DNA of 64,000 bases from Sphingobium yanoikuyae (GTDB lineage: Bacteria; Pseudomonadota; Alphaproteobacteria; Sphingomonadales; Sphingomonadaceae). A program made the translations under genes and the position numbers. The stretch covers positions 4,595,001 through 4,659,000 of the forward strand of contig NZ_CP053021.1 in NCBI RefSeq assembly GCF_013001025.1. Direction: 5' to 3'. Under the pieces are notes generated by a model. That model was not told the origin of the DNA and ran no database searches. It worked only from the letters and a program-made list of their open reading frames with translations. Positions 4,291 through 64,000 of the stretch are shown here, one piece after another (positions within the stretch are counted from its first letter, which is position 1; the number at the start of each line of letters is the position of its first letter).

Positions 4291-5340
4291 ATGCACGTAT
4301 TCGATCGACGCCTTCTTTATATATGGTTGTTGATGACGCTGGGAGCTGGTTGCGCGCTTTTTCTGCCAGAAATAGTCGTTCTTCTGATGCTGACGCTTAT
4401 CGGCTTTCCTTTGGCATGGTTGATGACCCTCATGCCAGGAGCATGGATTTATTTCACGCCGACACTGGCCATCTATATGATCCTACGCAGAGTGTCGGAC
4501 GCCCCTCCGCGCTTGATGATGCTGGTTGCGGCCGCCTTACTGCCGCTTGCCGTCGGCTTTGCTATTCCATGGTGCGCTAATGGGATCACTGAACGACGCG
4601 TCCAAGCCCTGATCGCACAAGATCATGGCGCGCCTCCAATATTGCCAGTAGGCCTTTCCATCACCCATGCAATCGACAGAGGCTTAGGTTCGTCCGGCAA
4701 ATGCTGGGACACCTGCCAACGGCTCCTATTTTCGCGCACCGCAAAGAGCATTGCTGAAGTACCACTCGACATGCTGCCGAAGCAAGCCTCGCTCCCGGTT
4801 CCTGCACGTCGCTTTTCGCTCGGACCGATTGGACCGGGATGTAACAATACACGGTTACAAACGACGTATGCCACGAGCACAGAAACTGGTCGCGAGGTTC
4901 CACCCCCTCCGCCACCACTCTCGGACAAACTGGAGGACTTCGCACAGGAAGGATTGTGTTTGCACGATGATGCAGTGCGAGATGTGCGCTCCGACGTGCT
5001 CATTGTGGAACGGCGGAACTATGATCCGGCTTTCCGGGGCTTCCATTTTGAGGGTGAGGGCTGGCGCGCCTCGCTGCATCCCATCGCCCCATTCAAAAGG
5101 CGTGAAGTTTTCCGACATACGCCTTCCGGCTTGGTGCGGCTTATGCGCCGCACTGAGGTCCGATATGCGCTCTTGGCGGAGCCATTATGGCTATCTCCAG
5201 GATTCCGTTTCGACACGGCGTCCCCGACGCACTGGGCTTGGCGCGACGAGCGTGTCGTCGGCAGTCCGGTCGACAGCTTTCAGCCGACCCAATGGAACGG
5301 GTTAATTGCCAACGATCTGGCGGTGCATGGTCTCCGCTGA
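4291..5340 (+). CDS. unknown membrane protein of foreign origin
   Basis: This 349-residue protein is not recognised. The N-terminus has several closely packed hydrophobic segments (about residues 9-30, 28-47, 50-66 and 74-96). A soluble region of about 250 residues follows, with a proline run (PPPPPP near 203), several cysteines in the middle, and Trp/Phe-rich stretches near the end. Base composition is clearly lower in GC than its neighbours and codon use differs (more ATA, TTA and AGA-like choices), which fits acquisition by transfer. It sits between 50-bp direct repeats and beside a recombinase remnant. The ATG at 4291 has only a distant GGAAG as ribosome site. Function cannot be assigned; it could be cargo of the lost mobile element. 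Confidence 0.6.
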   Translation: MHVFDRRLLYIWLLMTLGAGCALFLPEIVVLLMLTLIGFPLAWLMTLMPGAWIYFTPTLAIYMILRRVSDAPPRLMMLVAAALLPLAVGFAIPWCANGITERRVQALIAQDHGAPPILPVGLSITHAIDRGLGSSGKCWDTCQRLLFSRTAKSIAEVPLDMLPKQASLPVPARRFSLGPIGPGCNNTRLQTTYATSTETGREVPPPPPPLSDKLEDFAQEGLCLHDDAVRDVRSDVLIVERRNYDPAFRGFHFEGEGWRASLHPIAPFKRREVFRHTPSGLVRLMRRTEVRYALLAEPLWLSPGFRFDTASPTHWAWRDERVVGSPVDSFQPTQWNGLIANDLAVHGLR

Positions 5341-28252: not shown

Positions 28253-28289
28253 AGAGCCTGATTCACGCCACCTCAGACGATCAGGCTCT
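28253..28289. terminator. hairpin between convergent genes
   Basis: AGAGCCTGAT at 28253-28262 pairs perfectly with 28280-28289. It lies between the end of the acyl-CoA dehydrogenase pair and the stop of the convergent LLM gene, whose TAG starts at 28288. There is no clear U-tract, so this is a probable terminator or REP-like hairpin. Confidence 0.55.
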
Positions 28290-29208
28290 AGCCCAACTTG
28301 GGCTTGATCTCCTCGATCACCCAGCGGGCATAATCCTCATATTCGCTGATGCTGCGCACCGCCGGGATCGGCACCGAACTCATGGTGACGCCCAGTGTCT
28401 GGAACCAGCCCAGGCGATCGATGATCTCCAGCGCGGTCATGCCCGGCCGGGCGCGCGGATCGTCGACCACGGCATGACCCTCACCGACCCGGCTAGTGGC
28501 AAAGCCGTACATCACGTCGAACGGCCGGCCGTCATAGCCGGGCTGCGACTTGATGAAGTCGATCTTCGCCGGGATATCCTCGGGTTTCGTCAGATAAGGC
28601 CACCAGCCGCTGGCATGGCGGGCGGCGCGCTTCAGCACGGCGTCGGCCTCACCGCCCATCCAGATCGGCAGATGCGGTTGCTGCACCGGGCGGGGCGCAA
28701 AGGCGACATCGCGAAAAGAGACGAACTCGCCCTCGAATTGCGGATCATCGCTGGTCCACAGCTCGACGATCGCGGCGAGATATTCGTCGCACATCCGCCC
28801 GCGCTGGTGGAAGGGGACGCCGAGCAGGTCGAACTCCTGCTCCAGCCAGCCCGCGCCAAAGGTCACCATCGCCCGGCCGCCCGACAGCCAGTCGATCGTC
28901 GACAGCGCCTTGGCGGTGATCGCAGGATGCTGCAGCGGCAGGATCGCGATCGAGCTGTTGATACGGATGCGGCTCGTGGCGCCGGCATAATAGCCCATCG
29001 CCGCATAGGCATGGAAATGATGCGGCCCCGACAGGTCGACATGGGCGCGCGGGATCAGGAAATGTTCCGGCACGCTGATCATGTCGTAACCCAGGTCATC
29101 GGCCAGCCTGGCCAGCCGCGTCTGGTCCGCTCCGCTGACGGACAATTCCCAGGGCTGCATCGTCGCCTTCAGCTCGATCAGCCGCGGCATGCCGAAGGCG
29201 AATTTCAT
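28288..29208 (-). CDS. LLM class flavin-dependent oxidoreductase
   Basis: This 306-residue protein has the luciferase-like monooxygenase barrel. It opens MKFAFGMPRLIELK, and has SVPEHFLIPRAHVDLSGPHHFH, IRINSSIAILPLQHPAITAKALSTID and GWLEQEFDLLGV, all typical of the F420- or FMN-dependent LLM family. It may oxygenate or reduce a catabolic intermediate. It sits 19 bases after the stop of the Rieske oxygenase alpha gene on the same strand, so the two are probably one operon. I cannot choose between F420 and FMN from this sequence. Confidence 0.85.
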   Translation of the reverse strand: MKFAFGMPRLIELKATMQPWELSVSGADQTRLARLADDLGYDMISVPEHFLIPRAHVDLSGPHHFHAYAAMGYYAGATSRIRINSSIAILPLQHPAITAKALSTIDWLSGGRAMVTFGAGWLEQEFDLLGVPFHQRGRMCDEYLAAIVELWTSDDPQFEGEFVSFRDVAFAPRPVQQPHLPIWMGGEADAVLKRAARHASGWWPYLTKPEDIPAKIDFIKSQPGYDGRPFDVMYGFATSRVGEGHAVVDDPRARPGMTALEIIDRLGWFQTLGVTMSSVPIPAVRSISEYEDYARWVIEEIKPKLG

Positions 29209-56743: not shown

Positions 56744-57681
56744 GCATGGACAGGATCGATTTCACCGGCCGCACCATCCTCATTACCGGGGCGGGCGGGG
56801 GCCTGGGCCGTGCCTATGCGCTGGACATCGCCGCGCGGGGCGGCGCGGTCATCGTCAATGATCTGGGCGGATCGGTGACGGGGGAGGGGGCGTCCGCGAC
56901 CATGGCCGACGCCGTCGCGGCAGAAATTGTTGCGGCGGGCGGCATCGCGATCGCCAATGGCGATGATGTGTCGTCGCCCGACGGCGCACAGGCGATGATC
57001 GACCTCGCCATCGCCCGCTTCGGCCGGATCGACGCGGTGATCGCCAATGCCGGCAATATGCGCTTTGCGCCGGTCGAGGATCTGACGGCGGCCGATCTCG
57101 ATGTGCTGCTCGCCGTCCATGTGCGCGGTTCCTTCAATGTCGCGCGCGCTGCCTGGCCGCATATGCGGGCGCAGGGCGGGGGTCGGCTGGTGCTCACCAC
57201 ATCGGGCGGCGGCATGCTGGGGATGGGCCAGCTGTCCGCCTATGGCGCGGCGAAGGGCGGCGTCATGGGGCTGATGCATAATCTGGCGGAGGAAGGGCGC
57301 CCCTATGGCATCCTCTGCAATGCGGTCATGCCCAATGCCGCCAGCCGCATGTCGGCGGGCATGAGCGAGGGGACACTCGGCCATAATCCCTGGGGCCGGG
57401 CACTCGGTCCCAGCTTCGATCCGCGTTTCACGGCCGGCCTCGTCGCGTATCTGGCGCATGAGCGCTGCACTTCGACTCACAGCATCTATTCCGCGCTCGG
57501 CGGCCGGATCGCGCGGGTTTTCGTTGGCGCGACCACGGGTTGGGACCATGGGCTGGACGCGCCGCCGACCGCAGAGGATGTCGCCGCCCATATCGACAGG
57601 ATCCGCGACGATGGCGCCGGCTATGCCATCCCGGCCGATATCTTCGACGAGTTCCGCATCGTGGCCGAGGGGCGGGGCTAG
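56740..57681 (+). CDS. SDR, MFE-2/HSD17B4-type hydroxyacyl-CoA dehydrogenase
   Basis: The protein has 313 residues, longer than usual SDRs. It opens ILITGAGGGLGRAYALDI and has VIVNDLGGSVTG, both strongly like the dehydrogenase part of multifunctional enzyme 2 (HSD17B4). Active-site residues are Tyr168 and Lys172 in YGAAK. The related enzymes oxidise (3R)-hydroxyacyl-CoAs, including branched and sterol side-chain esters. It is the fourth gene of the operon from the MFS gene. A hairpin-rich repeat follows its stop. Confidence 0.85.
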   Translation: MSMDRIDFTGRTILITGAGGGLGRAYALDIAARGGAVIVNDLGGSVTGEGASATMADAVAAEIVAAGGIAIANGDDVSSPDGAQAMIDLAIARFGRIDAVIANAGNMRFAPVEDLTAADLDVLLAVHVRGSFNVARAAWPHMRAQGGGRLVLTTSGGGMLGMGQLSAYGAAKGGVMGLMHNLAEEGRPYGILCNAVMPNAASRMSAGMSEGTLGHNPWGRALGPSFDPRFTAGLVAYLAHERCTSTHSIYSALGGRIARVFVGATTGWDHGLDAPPTAEDVAAHIDRIRDDGAGYAIPADIFDEFRIVAEGRG

Positions 57682-57782
57682 AGCATTCTGAAGTCGGCTG
57701 GAACAGCCGACGACTCGCAGAATGCGGCAAACCAAAGGAAATTAGAGCATCCTCCGATCCAACCTACTCGGAGGATGCTCTA
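57682..57782. repeat. two tandem hairpins, REP-like
   Basis: The first hairpin has outer arms GCATTCTG at 57683-57690 with 57718-57725 and inner arms GTCGGCTG at 57693-57700 with 57704-57711. The second has a perfect 15-bp stem TAGAGCATCCTCCGA at 57743-57757 with 57768-57782. The TAG stop of the convergent SDR gene is part of this last arm. They may terminate both transcripts. Confidence 0.8.
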
Positions 57783-58643
57783 GAAGCCCGCCACCATCGC
57801 TTCGCTCAGCTGCCACAGTTTCAGCGCCTGCGCATCATCCTGCGCGGCCACCGATGGGGTGAGTTCCGCGCGCTGATGGAAATAGCCGCCGCTGCTGCGT
57901 CCCGGTTCCTCCGCGCTGGCGAGCCAGACCAATGTGTCGGCGGCCTGCGCCGGCGTGACCGATCGGTCGAGGATCGATTCCATATAGGCCTGCATCGGCG
58001 CGTCGCAGTGGCTGGCGAAATTGCTGGCGACGACGCCGGGATGCATGGCGTGGGCGACGATGCCGTCATCGGCGACGCGGCGGGCCAGTTCGCGGGTGAA
58101 CAGGATATTGGCGAGCTTGGCATGGCAATAGGCCGCGCCACCGGCGAAATTGTCGGCGAAGCTGAGGTCGTCCCACTGGATGCCCGGGCTCTGTTCATGC
58201 CCGGTCGAGGACACGGCGATGACGCGCACCGCGCCCGGCCCCCGCTTACGGGCAGCAGCCCGCAGATTGGGCAGCAACTTCTGCGTCAGCAGGAAGGGGG
58301 CGAGATGGTTGGAGGCAAAGGTCGCCTCGAACCCTTCGGGCGTGATCGTCCGTTCCGCCACCACGCCGCCGGCATTATTGAGCAGCGCGTCGATTTCCGG
58401 CGCAAGCGTCGCGATCTCCCGCGCGACCCGCGCGGTATCGGCCATGGACGATAGGTCGGCGCGCAGCATCGTGAAATCGCCGCCGGCATCGGCCCTCAGA
58501 TCGGCCTCCGCCGCGGCACAGCGTGCGGCATCACGCCCCACGCCGATCACGCGCCAGCCCTGTTGCAGCAGGGCGCGGGCGGCTTCCTTGCCGACGCCGG
58601 CGCTAGCGCCGGTGACGATCGCGGTGCGTTGGGTGTCGCTCAT
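57780..58643 (-). CDS. SDR family oxidoreductase (retinol-dehydrogenase-like)
   Basis: The protein has 287 residues. It has TGASAGVGKEAARAL at 11-25, the NNAGG motif, and YCHAK (Tyr172, Lys176). It resembles the retinol-dehydrogenase/WW-domain-oxidoreductase class and would oxidise or reduce a hydroxyl or ketone of a hydrophobic compound. It overlaps the MFS gene start (four bases) and its stop lies within the tandem hairpins. Confidence 0.85.
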   Translation of the reverse strand: MSDTQRTAIVTGASAGVGKEAARALLQQGWRVIGVGRDAARCAAAEADLRADAGGDFTMLRADLSSMADTARVAREIATLAPEIDALLNNAGGVVAERTITPEGFEATFASNHLAPFLLTQKLLPNLRAAARKRGPGAVRVIAVSSTGHEQSPGIQWDDLSFADNFAGGAAYCHAKLANILFTRELARRVADDGIVAHAMHPGVVASNFASHCDAPMQAYMESILDRSVTPAQAADTLVWLASAEEPGRSSGGYFHQRAELTPSVAAQDDAQALKLWQLSEAMVAGF

Positions 58644-59866
58644 GCGTAAACGGGCTCCATAGTGGGGGGACGGCGCCCCAGGGTCAGGAACAGGGCGGCA
58701 CCAGCCAGGGTGACGCAGGCGCTCAGCGCCAGGAACGGCGCATAGCTGCCCCAGATGCTCAGGGTCAGGCTGAGCGTCAGCGAACCCAGCGCCGCGCCGC
58801 CCGCGATCGCTGCGCCGACGAAACCCATGACCAGGCTGAACACGCCCAGGCCAAAGCGGCGCGAGACCAGATAGGCGGCGATGTCGCCCTCCGCGCCCTG
58901 TGCCAGCCCCATCATCGCGACCGAGAGGGCAAGGACGATGGTTGCGTCCAGTGGCGAGGCCATCAGCGCCATGCCGATCGCCGGCATCGCCAGCGCCAGC
59001 GCGGCGACATGGTGCGGCGGCATCCGGTCGAGCGACAGGCCGCAGGCGAATCGGCCGAGCAGCACGCCGATCGCATAGATGGAAATCAGCCAGGTCGCGG
59101 TCTGCGACGCGGCGCCGCTATCCATCAGCACCAGCTTCATCTGGGCCGAGGCGAGTCCCTGCGGGAAATTGACCAGCACCATGCCGACGATCAGCACCCA
59201 GAAGGCGGGATTGCGAAAGATGACGCGGCTGCCGACCGGTGCGGGCGTCCCTGCCTCCTCGACCTCCTCATGGGGATGTACGCCGATGTGCGCCGGGGTC
59301 AGCAGCACCGCGATCAGGCCGAAAACCAGGGTAACGCCGCCCATCAGCAGATAGCCGTTGCGCCAGCCCTGGCTCTCGATGAAGCCACCGAGCAGCGGGG
59401 CGATCACCGCGCCGACCAGCGGCGGACCGGTCATCACGATCGAGAAGGCAAGGCCGCGTGCCCGCTCGAACCGTTCGGCGACGATGCGGGTATAGACCGG
59501 CGATGTGGTGAGCGTGCCAAGGATGATCTGCAGCACGGCGACGGCGAAGAAGGCGCGGATGCTGCCCGGCTGGAAGGCGAAGCCCAGATAGGCGATCGGC
59601 CCCGCCAGCACGCCGACGGCGGATACCGCGCGCACACCGAAGCGGTCGGTCAGCCGCCCGGTGATCGGCTGCATGATCAGCATCAGCAGGCCGAAACTGC
59701 CGAGCAGCGCGAATTGGGATTTCTCCCAGCCGAACTCGCCGATCATCTTCGGCGCGAACAGGCTCATCGTATAGGCGGACAGGCCGATGCCGAAGCCCAG
59801 TCCCATCGTCGCGGCGAGCAGGGGGCGCCAATGCGTCCGCAACTCGCCCCAATAGGCCGATCCCAT
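58640..59866 (-). CDS. MFS transporter
   Basis: The protein has 408 residues and about twelve transmembrane segments, with GRLTDRFGVRAVSAVG as the helix 2-3 loop and GRFACGLSLDRMPPHH as its repeat. Members with this layout carry oxalate/formate-like or monocarboxylate ligands, so it could import the substrate acid. The start at 59866 has GAGGAGAGG well placed before it. It forms an operon with the SDR and probably with the TetR gene at 59917, whose stop is 50 bases upstream. Confidence 0.9.
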   Translation of the reverse strand: MGSAYWGELRTHWRPLLAATMGLGFGIGLSAYTMSLFAPKMIGEFGWEKSQFALLGSFGLLMLIMQPITGRLTDRFGVRAVSAVGVLAGPIAYLGFAFQPGSIRAFFAVAVLQIILGTLTTSPVYTRIVAERFERARGLAFSIVMTGPPLVGAVIAPLLGGFIESQGWRNGYLLMGGVTLVFGLIAVLLTPAHIGVHPHEEVEEAGTPAPVGSRVIFRNPAFWVLIVGMVLVNFPQGLASAQMKLVLMDSGAASQTATWLISIYAIGVLLGRFACGLSLDRMPPHHVAALALAMPAIGMALMASPLDATIVLALSVAMMGLAQGAEGDIAAYLVSRRFGLGVFSLVMGFVGAAIAGGAALGSLTLSLTLSIWGSYAPFLALSACVTLAGAALFLTLGRRPPTMEPVYA

Positions 59867-59916
59867 ATCCCTCTCCTCATCTGGTGCCGGCCCCCTCTTG
59901 CGGGTGGTCCGGGCTG

Positions 59917-60570
59917 CTAGTCCGATCTGGTCCTTATGCCGTTCAGGAACAGGCGCACGGCAGCCCGCACCCAGTCGTCCACCTCGGCGGCGCTCATCGG
60001 CTGGAGCGATCCCACCAGCCGGATTGGCCCGCCCAGCACCATCGTCATGAACAGGCTGGCTGCCATGTCCGGCCGGTCCACGCAAATCGCCCCGGCGCTA
60101 TCGTGGCGGCGCAGCAACTCGGCCAGATGGTCATGCACCGGCTGGGCGCCCTGGCTGTAGGACAGCATCAAGAGGTCGGGGAAGCGATAGGATTCGGTGG
60201 TGATGACCCGCCGCAGCCGGACACCTTCGGGCGTAGACAGGTCGGCGATGCGCAGCCGGGCGATATCGACCAGTGTGGTTTCCAGATCGTCGCCAGCGAT
60301 TGCCTCCAGCGCGGCGCGTGGCGTGGCGGTGCGGGCGATCGCCCGGCCGACCGCCGCCATGAACAGCGCCGCCTTGTCGGGATAGCGGGCATAGATGGTG
60401 CGCTTGGTCATGCCGACGGCGGCGGCCACCGCCTCCATCGTCGTCAGCTCGAACCCCTTGTCGAGGAACATGTCGAGCGCGGCGTCGAGCATTTCGGCCT
60501 GGCGTGCCTGCGCCTGCGCGCGGGTCGGGCGCCCGGCGGCGGGGCGGGGATCTGAAATCGGAGTGTCCAT
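59917..60570 (-). CDS. TetR family transcriptional regulator
   Basis: The protein has 217 residues. The helix-turn-helix lies near 25-75: AEMLDAALDMFLDKGFELTTMEAVAAAVGMTKRTIYARYPDKAALF. The rest is the variable ligand domain. I took the ATG at 60570 (MDTPISD); an in-frame start upstream at 60615 has no support. A 23-base imperfect palindrome at 60616-60638 is its likely operator. It can repress both its own strand and the lux-like pair. Confidence 0.9.
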   Translation of the reverse strand: MDTPISDPRPAAGRPTRAQAQARQAEMLDAALDMFLDKGFELTTMEAVAAAVGMTKRTIYARYPDKAALFMAAVGRAIARTATPRAALEAIAGDDLETTLVDIARLRIADLSTPEGVRLRRVITTESYRFPDLLMLSYSQGAQPVHDHLAELLRRHDSAGAICVDRPDMAASLFMTMVLGGPIRLVGSLQPMSAAEVDDWVRAAVRLFLNGIRTRSD

Positions 60571-60615
60571 GACCAGCATCATTATGGCCCTTGCCGCCTT
60601 TTGCGAATCATGCAT

Positions 60616-60638
60616 AATGATACGAACCAGGTGTCATT
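60616..60638. promoter_or_regulatory. TetR operator candidate
   Basis: AATGATAC at 60616-60623 faces GTGTCATT at 60631-60638 with one mismatch, separated by seven bases. It lies in the 102-base gap between the divergent TetR and LuxE-like genes. Its length and AT-rich flanks fit TetR binding sites. Confidence 0.6.
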
Positions 60639-60672
60639 AATGTACCGGAGCCACAAGGGCAAGGAGCAGGAT

Positions 60673-62025
60673 ATGGGCGCGCAGGCCGATCGCCTCACCG
60701 GACTCGTCAGTTCGGATTATCGATTCAACATTCCCCATGCCGAATTGCGCGACGCGCAGATCGCGGCGCTGAACGAACGGTTTCAGGAAAAGAAGGATGG
60801 CATCCGCCTGCTGGGCCACCGCGCACGGGAGGCAGGGATCAGCGAGGTGACCTCGCTCGGCGACGCGGTGAAGCTGCTGTTCCCGCATACGGCGTATAAG
60901 AGCTATCCCGAAAACTGGCTGATGCAGCAGCGCTGGGACAAGCTGACCCAGTGGCTCAACACCATTTCCGCCCATCCCGTGACCGACATCGATCTGGACG
61001 GCATCACCGATGTCGACGACTGGATCGCCCGGCTGCAGGCGGCCGGCCATTATGTCTCCTGCTCCAGCGGCACCACCGGCAAGTCGGCGATGCTGATCGC
61101 GTCGCAGGCGGACATGGACTGGTCGAAGCTCGACACCGTCAATGTCTTTGCCTGGGGATCGGGCGTGCAGCCGGCGCAGGACCGCCGCATCATGGGGCTG
61201 GCCCCGGTCGCCAAGGTGCCCAAGAACGAGATTATCGGCGAAGCCCAGCGCGAGGCCTTTGGCGATCCCGACAAGGCGATGTTCCAATATCCGGTGCCGC
61301 CGATCACCGTCGGGTCGCTGACCCGCATGGTCGTGCTGCGCAAGGCGATGGCGGACGGCAGCGCGCTGCCCGGAGACATTGCCGAGTTCGAGGAAACGTC
61401 GCGCTTCCGGCAGGAGGCGATGGACGCCGCCGTCCATATCGCCGCCGATGCGATGATCGAACATCGCGCCGAAAAGCTCTATATCGCGGGCATGTGGAAC
61501 GCGCTCTACCATGTCGCCAAGGCGGTGCGGGAGCGCGGCTATAGCGCCAAGGATTTCAACCCGGACAACTGCATCTATATCGGCGGCGGCCTCAAGCGCG
61601 CGCAACTGCCGGACGATTATCAGCAGTTCGTGCATGAAACCTTCAACATTCCCGAAGGCCGGCACTTCCAGAATTATTCGATGCAGGAACTCAACAGCGG
61701 CATGCCCAAATGCCGCGAGGGCGGGCGTTACCATGTGCCGCCCTGGATCGTGCCGATGGTGCTGGACAAGGATGGCGATGCGTTGATCGCCCATGATCAT
61801 GATGGCGAGGTCGAGGGGCGGGCCGCCTTCTTCGACCTGTCGCTCGACGGCCGCTGGGGCGGAGTCATCACCGGCGACCGGATATCGGTCGACTACAGCC
61901 CCTGTGCCTGTGGCAATAGCGGGCCATCCATTCGCGACAATATTGCCCGCTATGCCGATCTGGACGGCGACGACAAGATCGGCTGCGCGGGCACCGTCGA
62001 TGCCTATGTGCGAGGTGTGGCATGA
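60673..62025 (+). CDS. LuxE-like acyl-protein synthetase / ligase
   Basis: This 450-residue protein of the ANL-related LuxE/PaaK group has the phosphate loop SCSSGTTGKSAML at about 129-141, and a later CAGG-like CACGNSGPSI. LuxE activates a fatty acid with ATP and passes the acyl group to the reductase. It starts at ATG 60673 after AAGGAGCAGG; longer upstream frames lack a ribosome site. It overlaps the LuxC-like gene (ATGA), so the pair is coupled. No luciferase subunits are present, so an aldehyde-producing role is likely. Confidence 0.8.
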   Translation: MGAQADRLTGLVSSDYRFNIPHAELRDAQIAALNERFQEKKDGIRLLGHRAREAGISEVTSLGDAVKLLFPHTAYKSYPENWLMQQRWDKLTQWLNTISAHPVTDIDLDGITDVDDWIARLQAAGHYVSCSSGTTGKSAMLIASQADMDWSKLDTVNVFAWGSGVQPAQDRRIMGLAPVAKVPKNEIIGEAQREAFGDPDKAMFQYPVPPITVGSLTRMVVLRKAMADGSALPGDIAEFEETSRFRQEAMDAAVHIAADAMIEHRAEKLYIAGMWNALYHVAKAVRERGYSAKDFNPDNCIYIGGGLKRAQLPDDYQQFVHETFNIPEGRHFQNYSMQELNSGMPKCREGGRYHVPPWIVPMVLDKDGDALIAHDHDGEVEGRAAFFDLSLDGRWGGVITGDRISVDYSPCACGNSGPSIRDNIARYADLDGDDKIGCAGTVDAYVRGVA

Positions 62026-63440
62026 GCGTGCTTGAACAGACAGCGCCGGTCGAAACGGCGGCCGAACCGATCCGCGTCGATCATTTCGTGCGTGGCAGAC
62101 TGGTCGAGGGCGGGGCGGTGCGCCATCGCTCGCGCGACCTGGGCGTCGATTTCGCGACGCCGCAGATCGACCTCAATGCGCTGGTCGCGCCGCGATCCGA
62201 ACTGCCGCCGCTGCTCGACGTGCCGGTCAGCGAGATCATCGATTTCCTGGTCGAGGCCGGACAGCGGATGGATTTCGAGACCAATCCCTATCTGCAGGCG
62301 GCGCTGGAACATACGGTCAAGGTCAATCCGCTGCCGCGCCGGGTGGTGGAAAATCTGTTCCGCCGGGCCAAGCATTTCCTGACGCCCGAGGGGCTGCGTT
62401 GCAGCATCGAATCGAGCTTCCTTGATCCCGCCGCGCTCGACCGCTGGGTGGAGCGCACCGACATGCACGGCAATCGCGGCGCGCTGCGCGCCTTCCCGCC
62501 GCGCATGGTGCATATGCTGGCGGGCAATTCGCCCACCGGCTGCATCTCCTCGATCGCGCAGGGCGCGCTGGTAAAGGCGGTCAACGTCTTCAAGATGCCG
62601 TCGAGCGACCCCTTCACCTGTGTCGCGATGCTGCGCACCATGGCCGATGTCGATCCCGATCATCCGGTGGTCCGGTCGATGTCGGCGGTCTATTGGCGCG
62701 GCGGCGACGAGCGGATCGAAGGGACGCTCTATCGCCCGCAATATTTCGACAAGATCGTCGCCTGGGGCGGCGGCGACGCAATCAAGAATGTCATCAAATA
62801 TCTGGGGCCGGGCATCCAGATGGTGTCGTTCGATCCCAAGACGTCGATTTCGATGATCGGGCCGGAAGGGTTCGATCCCGCCATCATCGACGATGTCGCC
62901 GATGCTGCCGCGACCGACGTCGCGACGATGAATCAGGAAGCCTGTCTCGCCAGCCGCTTCATCTTCGTCGAGGGCGATCGCGCTGGCGTCGAATCCTTCT
63001 GCGCCAGGTTGCAGCAGAAGCTCGGCCTAGATCGCGAAACCGCCTCGGCGGTCGCGCATCCGCTGCCGGTCGAGGTGCGCGACGAGATCGAGATGCTGAC
63101 GCTGATGGGCGACGATACCAAAGTCTGGGGCAAGCCGGACGGCCGGGGCTTGGTCATCCTGACTGACGAGCCGGTCGATTTCCATCCGAGCAACAAGACC
63201 GCCAATGTCGTCCATGTCGCCTCGCTCGATGCGGCGGTCCGCTATGTGAATGTCGCGACCCAGACGATCGGCATCTATCCGCCCGAACGCAAACACGCCC
63301 TGCGCGACCGCTTGGCCAGCGCCGGGGCGCAGCGCGTGGTGCGGCTGGGCGGCGCGGCCAAGCATGTGATGGGCGGCGCCCATGACGGCATGTTGCCGCT
63401 CCAGCGCTTCGTCCACTGGATGAGTGACGAGGACGCCTGA
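62022..63440 (+). CDS. LuxC-like acyl-CoA/acyl-protein reductase
   Basis: A 472-residue protein of the LuxC family (aldehyde dehydrogenase superfamily). The active-site motif is NQEACLASR with Cys at about residue 308; other matches are HMLAGNSPTGCISSI and GPGIQMVSFDPKTSISM. The enzyme reduces an activated acyl group to an aldehyde with NADPH. Its ATG overlaps the LuxE-like stop, so the two act as one unit. It may reduce a carboxyl side chain of the degraded compound, or run in the oxidising direction. Confidence 0.85.
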   Translation: MSVLEQTAPVETAAEPIRVDHFVRGRLVEGGAVRHRSRDLGVDFATPQIDLNALVAPRSELPPLLDVPVSEIIDFLVEAGQRMDFETNPYLQAALEHTVKVNPLPRRVVENLFRRAKHFLTPEGLRCSIESSFLDPAALDRWVERTDMHGNRGALRAFPPRMVHMLAGNSPTGCISSIAQGALVKAVNVFKMPSSDPFTCVAMLRTMADVDPDHPVVRSMSAVYWRGGDERIEGTLYRPQYFDKIVAWGGGDAIKNVIKYLGPGIQMVSFDPKTSISMIGPEGFDPAIIDDVADAAATDVATMNQEACLASRFIFVEGDRAGVESFCARLQQKLGLDRETASAVAHPLPVEVRDEIEMLTLMGDDTKVWGKPDGRGLVILTDEPVDFHPSNKTANVVHVASLDAAVRYVNVATQTIGIYPPERKHALRDRLASAGAQRVVRLGGAAKHVMGGAHDGMLPLQRFVHWMSDEDA

Positions 63441-63453
63441 TCCTCTCTGGCCG

Positions 63454-63492
63454 GGCGGGGAAGGGCCATCGCGCAAGCGATCCTTTCCCGCC
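63454..63492. terminator. hairpin after the lux-like pair
   Basis: An 11-bp stem, GGCGGGGAAGG at 63454-63464 with 63482-63492 (one G-T pair), encloses a smaller stem ATCGC at 63468-63472 with 63477-63481. No U-tract follows. It may attenuate or end the LuxEC-like transcript before the MFS gene. Confidence 0.5.
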
Positions 63493-63601
63493 TGCATTGC
63501 CTCGCCGGGCGAACCGGTTTCAAATCCTGCCCGGACAAGACGGCTCCAGCCGCATGATCGTCGCGCGCCACGACCGCGCCGCAACAGGTGAGGACAAGCG
63601 C

Positions 63602-64000
63602 ATGGCAGACAGCGACCCGCATTTTGACACGGCTTCCGCCGTCACGCCGCCCGAAGCGCTGCCCTCCATGGCCTATCGCGCCTATTTCCTGCTGCTGATG
63701 GTGCTGGTGTCGGCTTCGGTCCAGGGCGAACGCTATCTGATGGTGGTGATGGTGGAGCCGATCCGCCACGAACTGGGCCTGTCCGACGCCGCGATCGGCA
63801 TGGCCAAGGACATGATCATCGCGATCGTCTATATCCTCGCCATCATCCCGCTGGCGCGGCTGGCCGATGGCTGGTCGAAGCGCAAGATCGTCGCCATCGC
63901 CGCCACGGTGTGGAGCGCCGCCGTCATCGTCTGCGGCCTGGCGAAGAGCTTCTGGATATTGCTGATCGGTCGGGCCGGCATCGGCCTTGGCGAAGGCGGC
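63602..64000 (+). CDS. MFS transporter (partial, runs off the window)
   Basis: Only the first 133 residues are inside the window. They carry a polar start, SMAYRAYFLLLMVLVSAS as the first transmembrane segment, VEPIRHELGLSDAAIGMAKD, and the MFS loop LARLADGWSKRKIV with two further helices. The ATG at 63602 follows GAGGAC. It is 161 bases downstream of the LuxC-like gene and is probably part of the same catabolic region. The substrate is unknown. Confidence 0.85.
   Translation, partial: MADSDPHFDTASAVTPPEALPSMAYRAYFLLLMVLVSASVQGERYLMVVMVEPIRHELGLSDAAIGMAKDMIIAIVYILAIIPLARLADGWSKRKIVAIAATVWSAAVIVCGLAKSFWILLIGRAGIGLGEGG

Follow-up and report, generated by a model that had tools for sequence, protein, structure and literature searches.

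The window analysed here is a stretch of 64,000 nucleotides from Sphingobium yanoikuyae, positions 4595001–4659000 of contig C1 in a 5.94-Mb genome. Near its end two overlapping genes encode relatives of LuxE and LuxC, the LuxE-like protein at 60673..62025 and the LuxC-like protein at 62022..63440, both on the + strand. We suggest that this pair belongs to a TetR-repressed module that would reduce a carboxylic acid to the alcohol, a reading to which we assign a probability of about 0.64. Homology, conserved cysteines, the predicted fold, co-occurrence of the genes and a shared operator all speak for carboxyl reduction under TetR control.

The strongest new result is the predicted operator, which independently marks luxE, luxC and a short-chain dehydrogenase/reductase (SDR) gene as one putative regulon with tetR. 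The 25-mer operator TAATGAWACGCATNAGKTGCCATTA, an imperfect dyad with half sites TAATG…CATTA, scores above 10 bits in 71 of 82 regions upstream of LuxE (80 genome loci, L005 and the window). Between its end and the inferred LuxE start there are 21–120 bases, mostly 24–69. The maximum in 4100 shuffled upstream regions was 7.0 bits; the shuffles were mononucleotide and the position-weight matrix was trained on the same upstream regions that it scored, and the independent controls are reversed patterns searched in whole genomes. Scores above 20 bits are found in 35 of 41 Sphingomonadales loci, 19 of 24 in Actinomycetota and 6 of 15 others. The copy in the window, TAATGATACGAACCAGGTGTCATTA at 60615..60639 (+ strand), is an imperfect dyad which covers part of the -10-like hexamer before luxE, so that a repressor bound there would block the polymerase. 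An earlier note on this DNA had placed the pair under a TetR site, and this is borne out, as the predicted operator is far above chance and a divergent TetR gene adjoins it.

The perfect-consensus pattern with 3 mismatches missed the window's own operator, so a looser pattern was used in its genome. With this pattern the window operator is the sole site with fewer than 3 mismatches, while 21 of 23 matches lie at 3 mismatches, below the 35 of the reversed control. Of 14 genomes chosen for carrying a LuxE locus, 11 contain 17 sites in all, while the reversed pattern gave 0; the three genomes without a site are those of Solimonas, Pseudomaricurvus and the Streptomyces of L059. Thirteen of the 17 sites are located at LuxE starts, three before an unlinked SDR homologue in Nocardia genomes (one of these SDRs is a partial match, 115 of 287 aa) and one before an unlinked LuxC. 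Two family-wide searches, of 397 genomes of the window's family (its own genome included, with 1 site) and of 301 genomes of the N. jiangxiensis family (N. jiangxiensis included, with 2 sites), each gave 7 sites in 6 genomes and 0 in the reversed control. LuxE accounts for 11 of these 14 sites and the SDR for 1, with 2 located elsewhere. No site was found in 10 other genomes of the same genus. As the operator is found on luxE, luxC and the SDR gene, TetR, SDR, LuxE and LuxC would form one regulon. Weaker operator-like sites (14–17 bits) are placed at the start of the SDR homologue downstream of LuxC in L071 (9451, - strand) and L073 (14544, + strand). An exact match to the operator pattern is also found at 4660–4684 (- strand) of L106, an IMG/VR contig filed as viral, where none of 17 query proteins from the window region was found within 8.6 kb.

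The LuxC-like protein (472 aa) is a putative acyl-protein/acyl-CoA reductase. It matches PF05893 over positions 3–401 of 401 (E 8.5e-59, 199.9 bits, cut-off 21) and is the sole full-length match of this family in the genome. Two partial matches elsewhere, in other reading frames, cover about 140 of the 401 profile positions with 26.7 and 22.4 bits. A profile of eight LuxC-like relatives aligns to the LuxC chain of 7xc6 (7xc6_A) over residues 3–457 of 477 with E 2.8e-115. Cys308, the putative catalytic residue, is invariant in all eight aligned sequences and aligns with residue 288 of LuxC in L012, the pOX38 reporter plasmid; this LuxC cysteine is catalytic. The protein fails the luminous-bacteria equivalog NF052251, with 180.5 bits against a cut-off of 750.

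The LuxE-like protein (450 aa), a putative acyl-protein synthetase, is by sequence a remote LuxE homologue below every Pfam and NCBIfam cut-off. It has no Pfam match at E 0.001 and PF04443 is not listed at E<=10, the single-sequence similarity to LuxE is weak (PDB 7xc6_E, E 0.0018), and the NCBIfam LuxE model NF052244 gives 15.5 bits against a cut-off of 550. When eleven relatives are combined in a profile, 7xc6_E is matched at E 6.3e-7, and 4 of 42 relatives match PF04443 at E<=1, the best at 2e-4. The top Pfam match is a rhamnosidase domain (E 0.011, below cut-off), also touched by 14 of the 42 relatives with a best E of 2.7e-5, which we take as chance. The predicted model (pLDDT 89) has an ANL core, and its residues 13–432 of 450 superpose on residues 6–334 of the 424 residues of BT_0428, which leaves nothing for the CoA-ligase C-terminal domain. 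EhpF (346 residues) is matched by the model to its end. The protein contains SSGTTGK at residues 131–137, an invariant Lys435 and, in its tail, Cys438, which is invariant in 42 of 42 chosen relatives. A MAFFT alignment puts Cys438 on residue 360 of 370 of the LuxE of the pOX38 reporter plasmid, which we take to be that of Photorhabdus. C347, H354, C411 and C413 are also invariant among the 42 members, with only the His clearly matched in the LuxE alignment, and could form a metal (zinc) site. Altogether 2452 relatives were found at E<=0.001 among 7997 scored candidates, and where names are present among the 120 listed they are nearly always 'hypothetical protein'.

The two genes were described in the earlier note as a coupled LuxE-like/LuxC-like pair. 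Both open reading frames are confirmed, and their overlap of 4 bases (62022–62025) fits translational coupling. The pairing extends across genomes. In a sample of 149 genomes of the family (tallied by hand, with pieces of LuxE genes merged) LuxE-like genes are found in 13 and LuxC-like genes in 12; 11 genomes have both and 135 neither. LuxC without LuxE-like is seen in one genome alone, as a partial match in a draft of about 320 contigs (G154). A LuxE place is found no more than about 1.1 kb from 16 of the 17 LuxC places, and all four relative arrangements occur; the exception is a fragment at a contig end (G036). Three of 19 LuxE genes lack a LuxC nearby. In GTDB genomes, a scan gave 335 LuxE loci. 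Among the best 80 of these, a LuxC match is present within 1.7 kb of LuxE in 68, and the closest named locus is that of Sphingobium scionense DSM 19371, with a LuxE-like protein 98% identical. One of the other 12 loci has the order LuxE–LuxE–LuxC (L085); the remaining 11 are in 10 genomes, all with a LuxC match of at least 55% identity elsewhere (the search for unlinked LuxC in these 10 also took in the genome of L076).

Two LuxE-like genes accompany one LuxC, in tandem or split, in L033, L047, L084, L085 and L006; such paired genes perhaps represent two acid specificities feeding one reductase. The identity to the window's proteins also differs between the partners. At L019, L030, L038, L074 and L091 it is 70–79% for LuxC and 54–70% for LuxE, and at most other loci outside the closest group 53–60% for LuxC and 56–71% for LuxE. 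This contrast hints at an exchange of partners between LuxE and LuxC lineages.

The regulator and the SDR are also regular companions of the pair. A divergent TetR (at least 35% identity) is located within 1 kb of LuxE in 59 of the 77 loci having at least 900 bp upstream. The SDR is upstream in 39 of 70 loci and on either side in 48 of 80, and a major facilitator superfamily (MFS) gene lies between TetR and SDR in 13 of 71. At 40% identity the same TetR is found 61 times in 841 kb near LuxE and 0 times in the 639 kb beyond 5 kb of it; for the SDR the counts are 47 near and 2 beyond 5 kb. The arrangement SDR–TetR–LuxE–LuxC is common to Novosphingobium, Nocardia, Pseudonocardia, Williamsia and others.

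The core is kept more widely than its catabolic surroundings, and the link of the sphingomonads to that neighbourhood is real. Clustering of neighbours over 89 stretches, the window included, shows a homologue of MFS3, an upstream MFS gene, in 17, a DAPDH-like protein in 14 and a thiolase in 13. Nearly all of these stretches are from sphingomonads, with Solimonas (L061) in addition and single genes at other places. The wider catabolic neighbourhood is present on both sides at the sphingomonad loci L005, L013–L017 and L048 and partially at L018, L025, L026, L028, L034, L066, L084, L092 and, in a gammaproteobacterium, Solimonas (L061); single genes of it are found at L059, L062 and L079. At most other loci the TetR-LuxE-LuxC core stands among different neighbours. 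The tie to a catabolic region proposed in the earlier note thus holds for part of the loci, mostly in sphingomonads. Also among the neighbours are a peptide chain release factor, in 17 loci, and other housekeeping genes, a TauD-type dioxygenase in 9, and different genes elsewhere. Since the neighbour families vary in this way, no single pathway accompanies the module everywhere. At L048, where the wide neighbourhood resembles that of the window, SDR, MFS, TetR, LuxE and LuxC are 45–66% identical to the window's genes and the flanking genes 57–84%; the core there may have been replaced as a cassette.

Several observations weigh against a single TetR-controlled reduction module. In the family sample, 2 of the 13 genomes with LuxE-like have no LuxC (G078, G107). 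Eleven of the 80 loci have no operator above 10 bits, and 8 of these (L030, L038, L066, L074, L079, L083, L086, L087) also have no neighbouring TetR. In 32 of 80 loci, some of them short stretches, neither flank was found to carry an SDR of this type, and the alcohol step may therefore not be general. Both of the operator sites located elsewhere in the family searches also count here. The L129 site (about 1501–1525, - strand) lies before an unrelated FAD-dependent protein and is either chance or a further member of the regulon, and the L130 site lies beside a TetR homologue (45%) without LuxE. For the LuxE-like protein, the part of the model that carries Cys438 (residues 435–450) is mostly below pLDDT 50, and the alignment of this cysteine with that of LuxE is built on weak similarity. 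By eye, the L129 site matches the perfect pattern near the start of a fumarate-reductase-type protein, in a genome that also has a LuxE operator. The L130 site is flanked, also by eye, by a patatin-like gene on one side and by carboxymuconolactone-decarboxylase-like and dehydrogenase-like genes on the other; a carboxymuconolactone decarboxylase gene also lies downstream of the pair in the window's genome (L004:7291–7944).

The module could work as follows. An organic acid, or a relative of it, would release TetR from the operator overlapping the luxE promoter, and once TetR meets its ligand the tetR–MFS–SDR unit and luxE–luxC would be induced together. The relay from acyl-AMP through a cysteine thioester to reduction is established for lux. 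An adenylate-forming fold without the C-terminal domain, together with a Cys438 that aligns with the LuxE tail cysteine, suggests a similar relay here, in which the LuxE-like protein would adenylate the acid with ATP and transfer the acyl group from acyl-AMP to its own Cys438. By homology to LuxC, the acyl group would then pass to Cys308 of the LuxC-like protein, where NAD(P)H would reduce it to the aldehyde. The broad class of the SDR also includes retinaldehyde reductases, and the co-regulated SDR would accordingly be expected to reduce the aldehyde to the alcohol. The MFS transporter may move the acid or the product. As for the purpose, we can only guess at detoxification or channelling of the acid.

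An interconversion of acid and aldehyde had been proposed in either direction. Acid to aldehyde is the favoured direction, given that the protein regularly paired with LuxC is probably an ATP-using acyl-protein synthetase and that an SDR is the third enzyme of the regulon. LuxC is an enzyme of the aldehyde-dehydrogenase superfamily and in principle reversible, so a catabolic oxidation has to be considered, in which the SDR oxidises an alcohol, the LuxC-like protein turns the aldehyde into an acyl-thioester, and this is passed to the nearby beta-oxidation genes by the LuxE-like protein or CoA. Thiolase, CoA-transferase, AMP-ligase and hydratase genes are indeed located upstream in the window, and the recurrence of thiolase, MFS3 and DAPDH-like genes given above agrees with such a route. 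However, oxidation would not need an ATP-using acyl-protein synthetase without the CoA-ligase C-terminal domain, and most loci outside the sphingomonads, as well as many inside, carry the core without catabolic neighbours. We therefore consider the oxidative route quite unlikely.

It is also unlikely, if somewhat less so, that the pair is an ordinary long-chain fatty-acid reductase making fatty aldehydes or alcohols for lipids or wax esters, next to catabolic genes that are irrelevant to it. The LuxC-like protein does resemble the long-chain acyl-protein thioester reductase 7xc6_A over nearly its whole length, the weak LuxE matches of its partner fall on the C-terminal half of LuxE, and a distant relative, L009, has a wax-ester-synthase-type gene about 8 kb away. 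The curated cut-offs for the fatty-acid LuxC and LuxE are however both missed by far, by the scores given above, and fatty-acid housekeeping is ill suited by TetR control and by a spread as patchy as that in the window's family and genus. Another distant relative, on the Pseudonocardia plasmid pLS1-1 (L008), lies directly behind a type I polyketide synthase, a cupin and an adenylating enzyme, with a P450 downstream, which argues against a fatty-acid reductase and is likely a biosynthetic use of the same chemistry. For the window's own pair, the role of a biosynthetic aryl-acid reductase, like EhpF/EhpG or GriC/GriD, that would produce an aldehyde for signalling or as an antibiotic and not act on an imported acid, is the least probable explanation and a very unlikely one. 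No recurring biosynthetic cluster was seen among the annotated neighbour families, where annotation covered 10 cluster representatives and most small clusters fell outside it.

The preferred reading, reduction of an acid under TetR control, can be compared with known systems. Carboxylic acid reductases (CAR, A-PCP-R) convert acid, ATP and NADPH to the aldehyde through an acyl-adenylate and a thioester. The chemistry proposed here is alike, but the module consists of separate genes, would use a cysteine in place of phosphopantetheine and has a LuxC-type reductase; no carrier domain was found by Pfam in either protein at E<=0.001. With the luminous LuxC/LuxE (PF05893/PF04443) the pair shares full-length LuxC homology, a LuxE-like ANL core, alignment of both cysteines and adjacency of the genes. 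It differs in that no luxA or luxB was found nearby, in the length of the LuxE-like protein (450 against 370 aa) and its scores below every LuxE cut-off, in the TetR/SDR regulon and in the invariant C411-x-C413, which has no counterpart in the LuxE alignment. The LuxE-like model also has an EhpF-like predicted fold, EhpF/EhpG being a system of D-alanylgriseoluteic acid biosynthesis in Enterobacter/Pantoea agglomerans. Here the identity in structural alignments is 10–12 percent, the Ehp genes belong to a biosynthetic phenazine operon, and EhpF was not recovered by the LuxE-like sequence profile at E<=10. Distant LuxC matches on Streptomyces, Pantoea and Azospirillum plasmids adjoin genes annotated as acyl-protein synthase or long-chain fatty acid–CoA ligase; these matches could not be identified as GriD or EhpG. 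In grixazone biosynthesis of Streptomyces griseus, GriC/GriD combine an AMP-binding protein with a separate reductase that convert an aryl acid to the aldehyde, according to PMC10179220. Our module likewise has two separate proteins. It would work like luminous LuxC/LuxE and perhaps also like EhpF/EhpG or GriC/GriD, yet it stands as a separate, unnamed branch.

The remaining features of the locus agree with the SDR and MFS surroundings described earlier, with an MFS and the SDR upstream and a second MFS downstream of luxC. The TetR repressor (59917..60615, - strand; TetR_N and an AefR-type TetR_C_7 by Pfam) is divergent from luxE, and its true start is probably near 60579, judged from the lengths of homologues. 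The upstream MFS gene (58640..59866, - strand), whose start at 59866 is a reading of a frame open up to 60085, is a probable co-transcript of tetR; among NCBIfam models it comes closest to monocarboxylate-type carriers, with every score far under the cut-off. It overlaps by 4 bases the gene of the SDR (57780..58643, - strand), the proposed aldehyde reductase, which is closest to PRK06197 (167 bits, below the cut-off of 268) and whose nearest PDB entries are an uncharacterised mycobacterial SDR and protochlorophyllide reductases. Before luxE, a sigma-70-like TTGCCG-N16-CATAAT (60591..60618, + strand) agrees with the consensus at 9 of 12 positions; it is a consensus match only, and with 2 such matches in 57600–64000 against 0.9 (sd 0.9) in shuffles it is alone not significant. 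AAGGAG lies six bases 5' of the luxE-like ATG.

A GC-rich hairpin without a T run follows luxC (63449..63501, + strand; -43.3 kcal/mol for 90 nt, z -2.6, equalled by 4 of 200 shuffles). It is a possible end of the luxEC transcript, although a terminator search did not list it. Because this hairpin follows luxC and the downstream MFS is seen in sphingomonad loci alone (L005, L013–L015 and L048, and at 44–46% identity L016 and L017), that MFS was set aside as a member of the unit. Of the gene order TetR-LuxE-LuxC-MFS that the earlier note put forward for a check, TetR-LuxE-LuxC is widespread, while the final MFS was seen in sphingomonads only. The stated lack of luxA and luxB is confirmed for the 40 proteins scanned with Pfam (window 21289–64000, with 1–21000 outside the scan, and a downstream stretch). 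About 31 kb from the pair, at 28288–29208 (- strand) beside a Rieske oxygenase, there is a luciferase-like monooxygenase. It passes TIGR03619 (F420-type LLM) and scores 38.9 bits for luciferase alpha, against a cut-off of 600; it is not LuxA or LuxB, but it does place a member of the luciferase family in the window.

LuxC/LuxE homologues without luciferase are already known as such, and several plasmids carry a gene annotated as acyl-CoA reductase beside a LuxE-type or 'hypothetical' partner. A literature search, of titles and the openings of abstracts with few subscription journals, found no luciferase-free LuxC/LuxE module of this kind, which is weak evidence of novelty; the searched terms do not occur in the accessible main text of a paper on saponins and tomato Sphingobium (PMC10653915). 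New within the literature searched, as far as shown, are the unnamed LuxE-like branch, its regular coupling to LuxC across phyla and the operator-defined TetR/SDR regulon.

In its widest form, we propose an unnamed TetR, SDR, LuxE-like and LuxC-like regulon that shares a single conserved 25-bp operator, ranges from sphingomonads to Nocardia and Streptomyces and has probably been transferred among them. It would encode a dedicated acid-to-alcohol pathway with a cysteine-thioester relay acting on a non-fatty, probably plant- or microbe-derived acid, and the 450-aa LuxE-like protein would represent a new family of carboxylate-reducing enzymes. We put the chance that all of this is right at about even. 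A two-protein, apparently CoA-free and carrier-free reduction of acids is relevant to biocatalysis and to the question why non-luminous bacteria retain lux-type reductases. As the LuxE-like family is large and nearly all its members are called 'hypothetical protein', a single assay would give many genes an annotation. The conserved operator provides a handle, as it predicts regulon members in other genomes and could serve as a reporter for finding the inducing acid.

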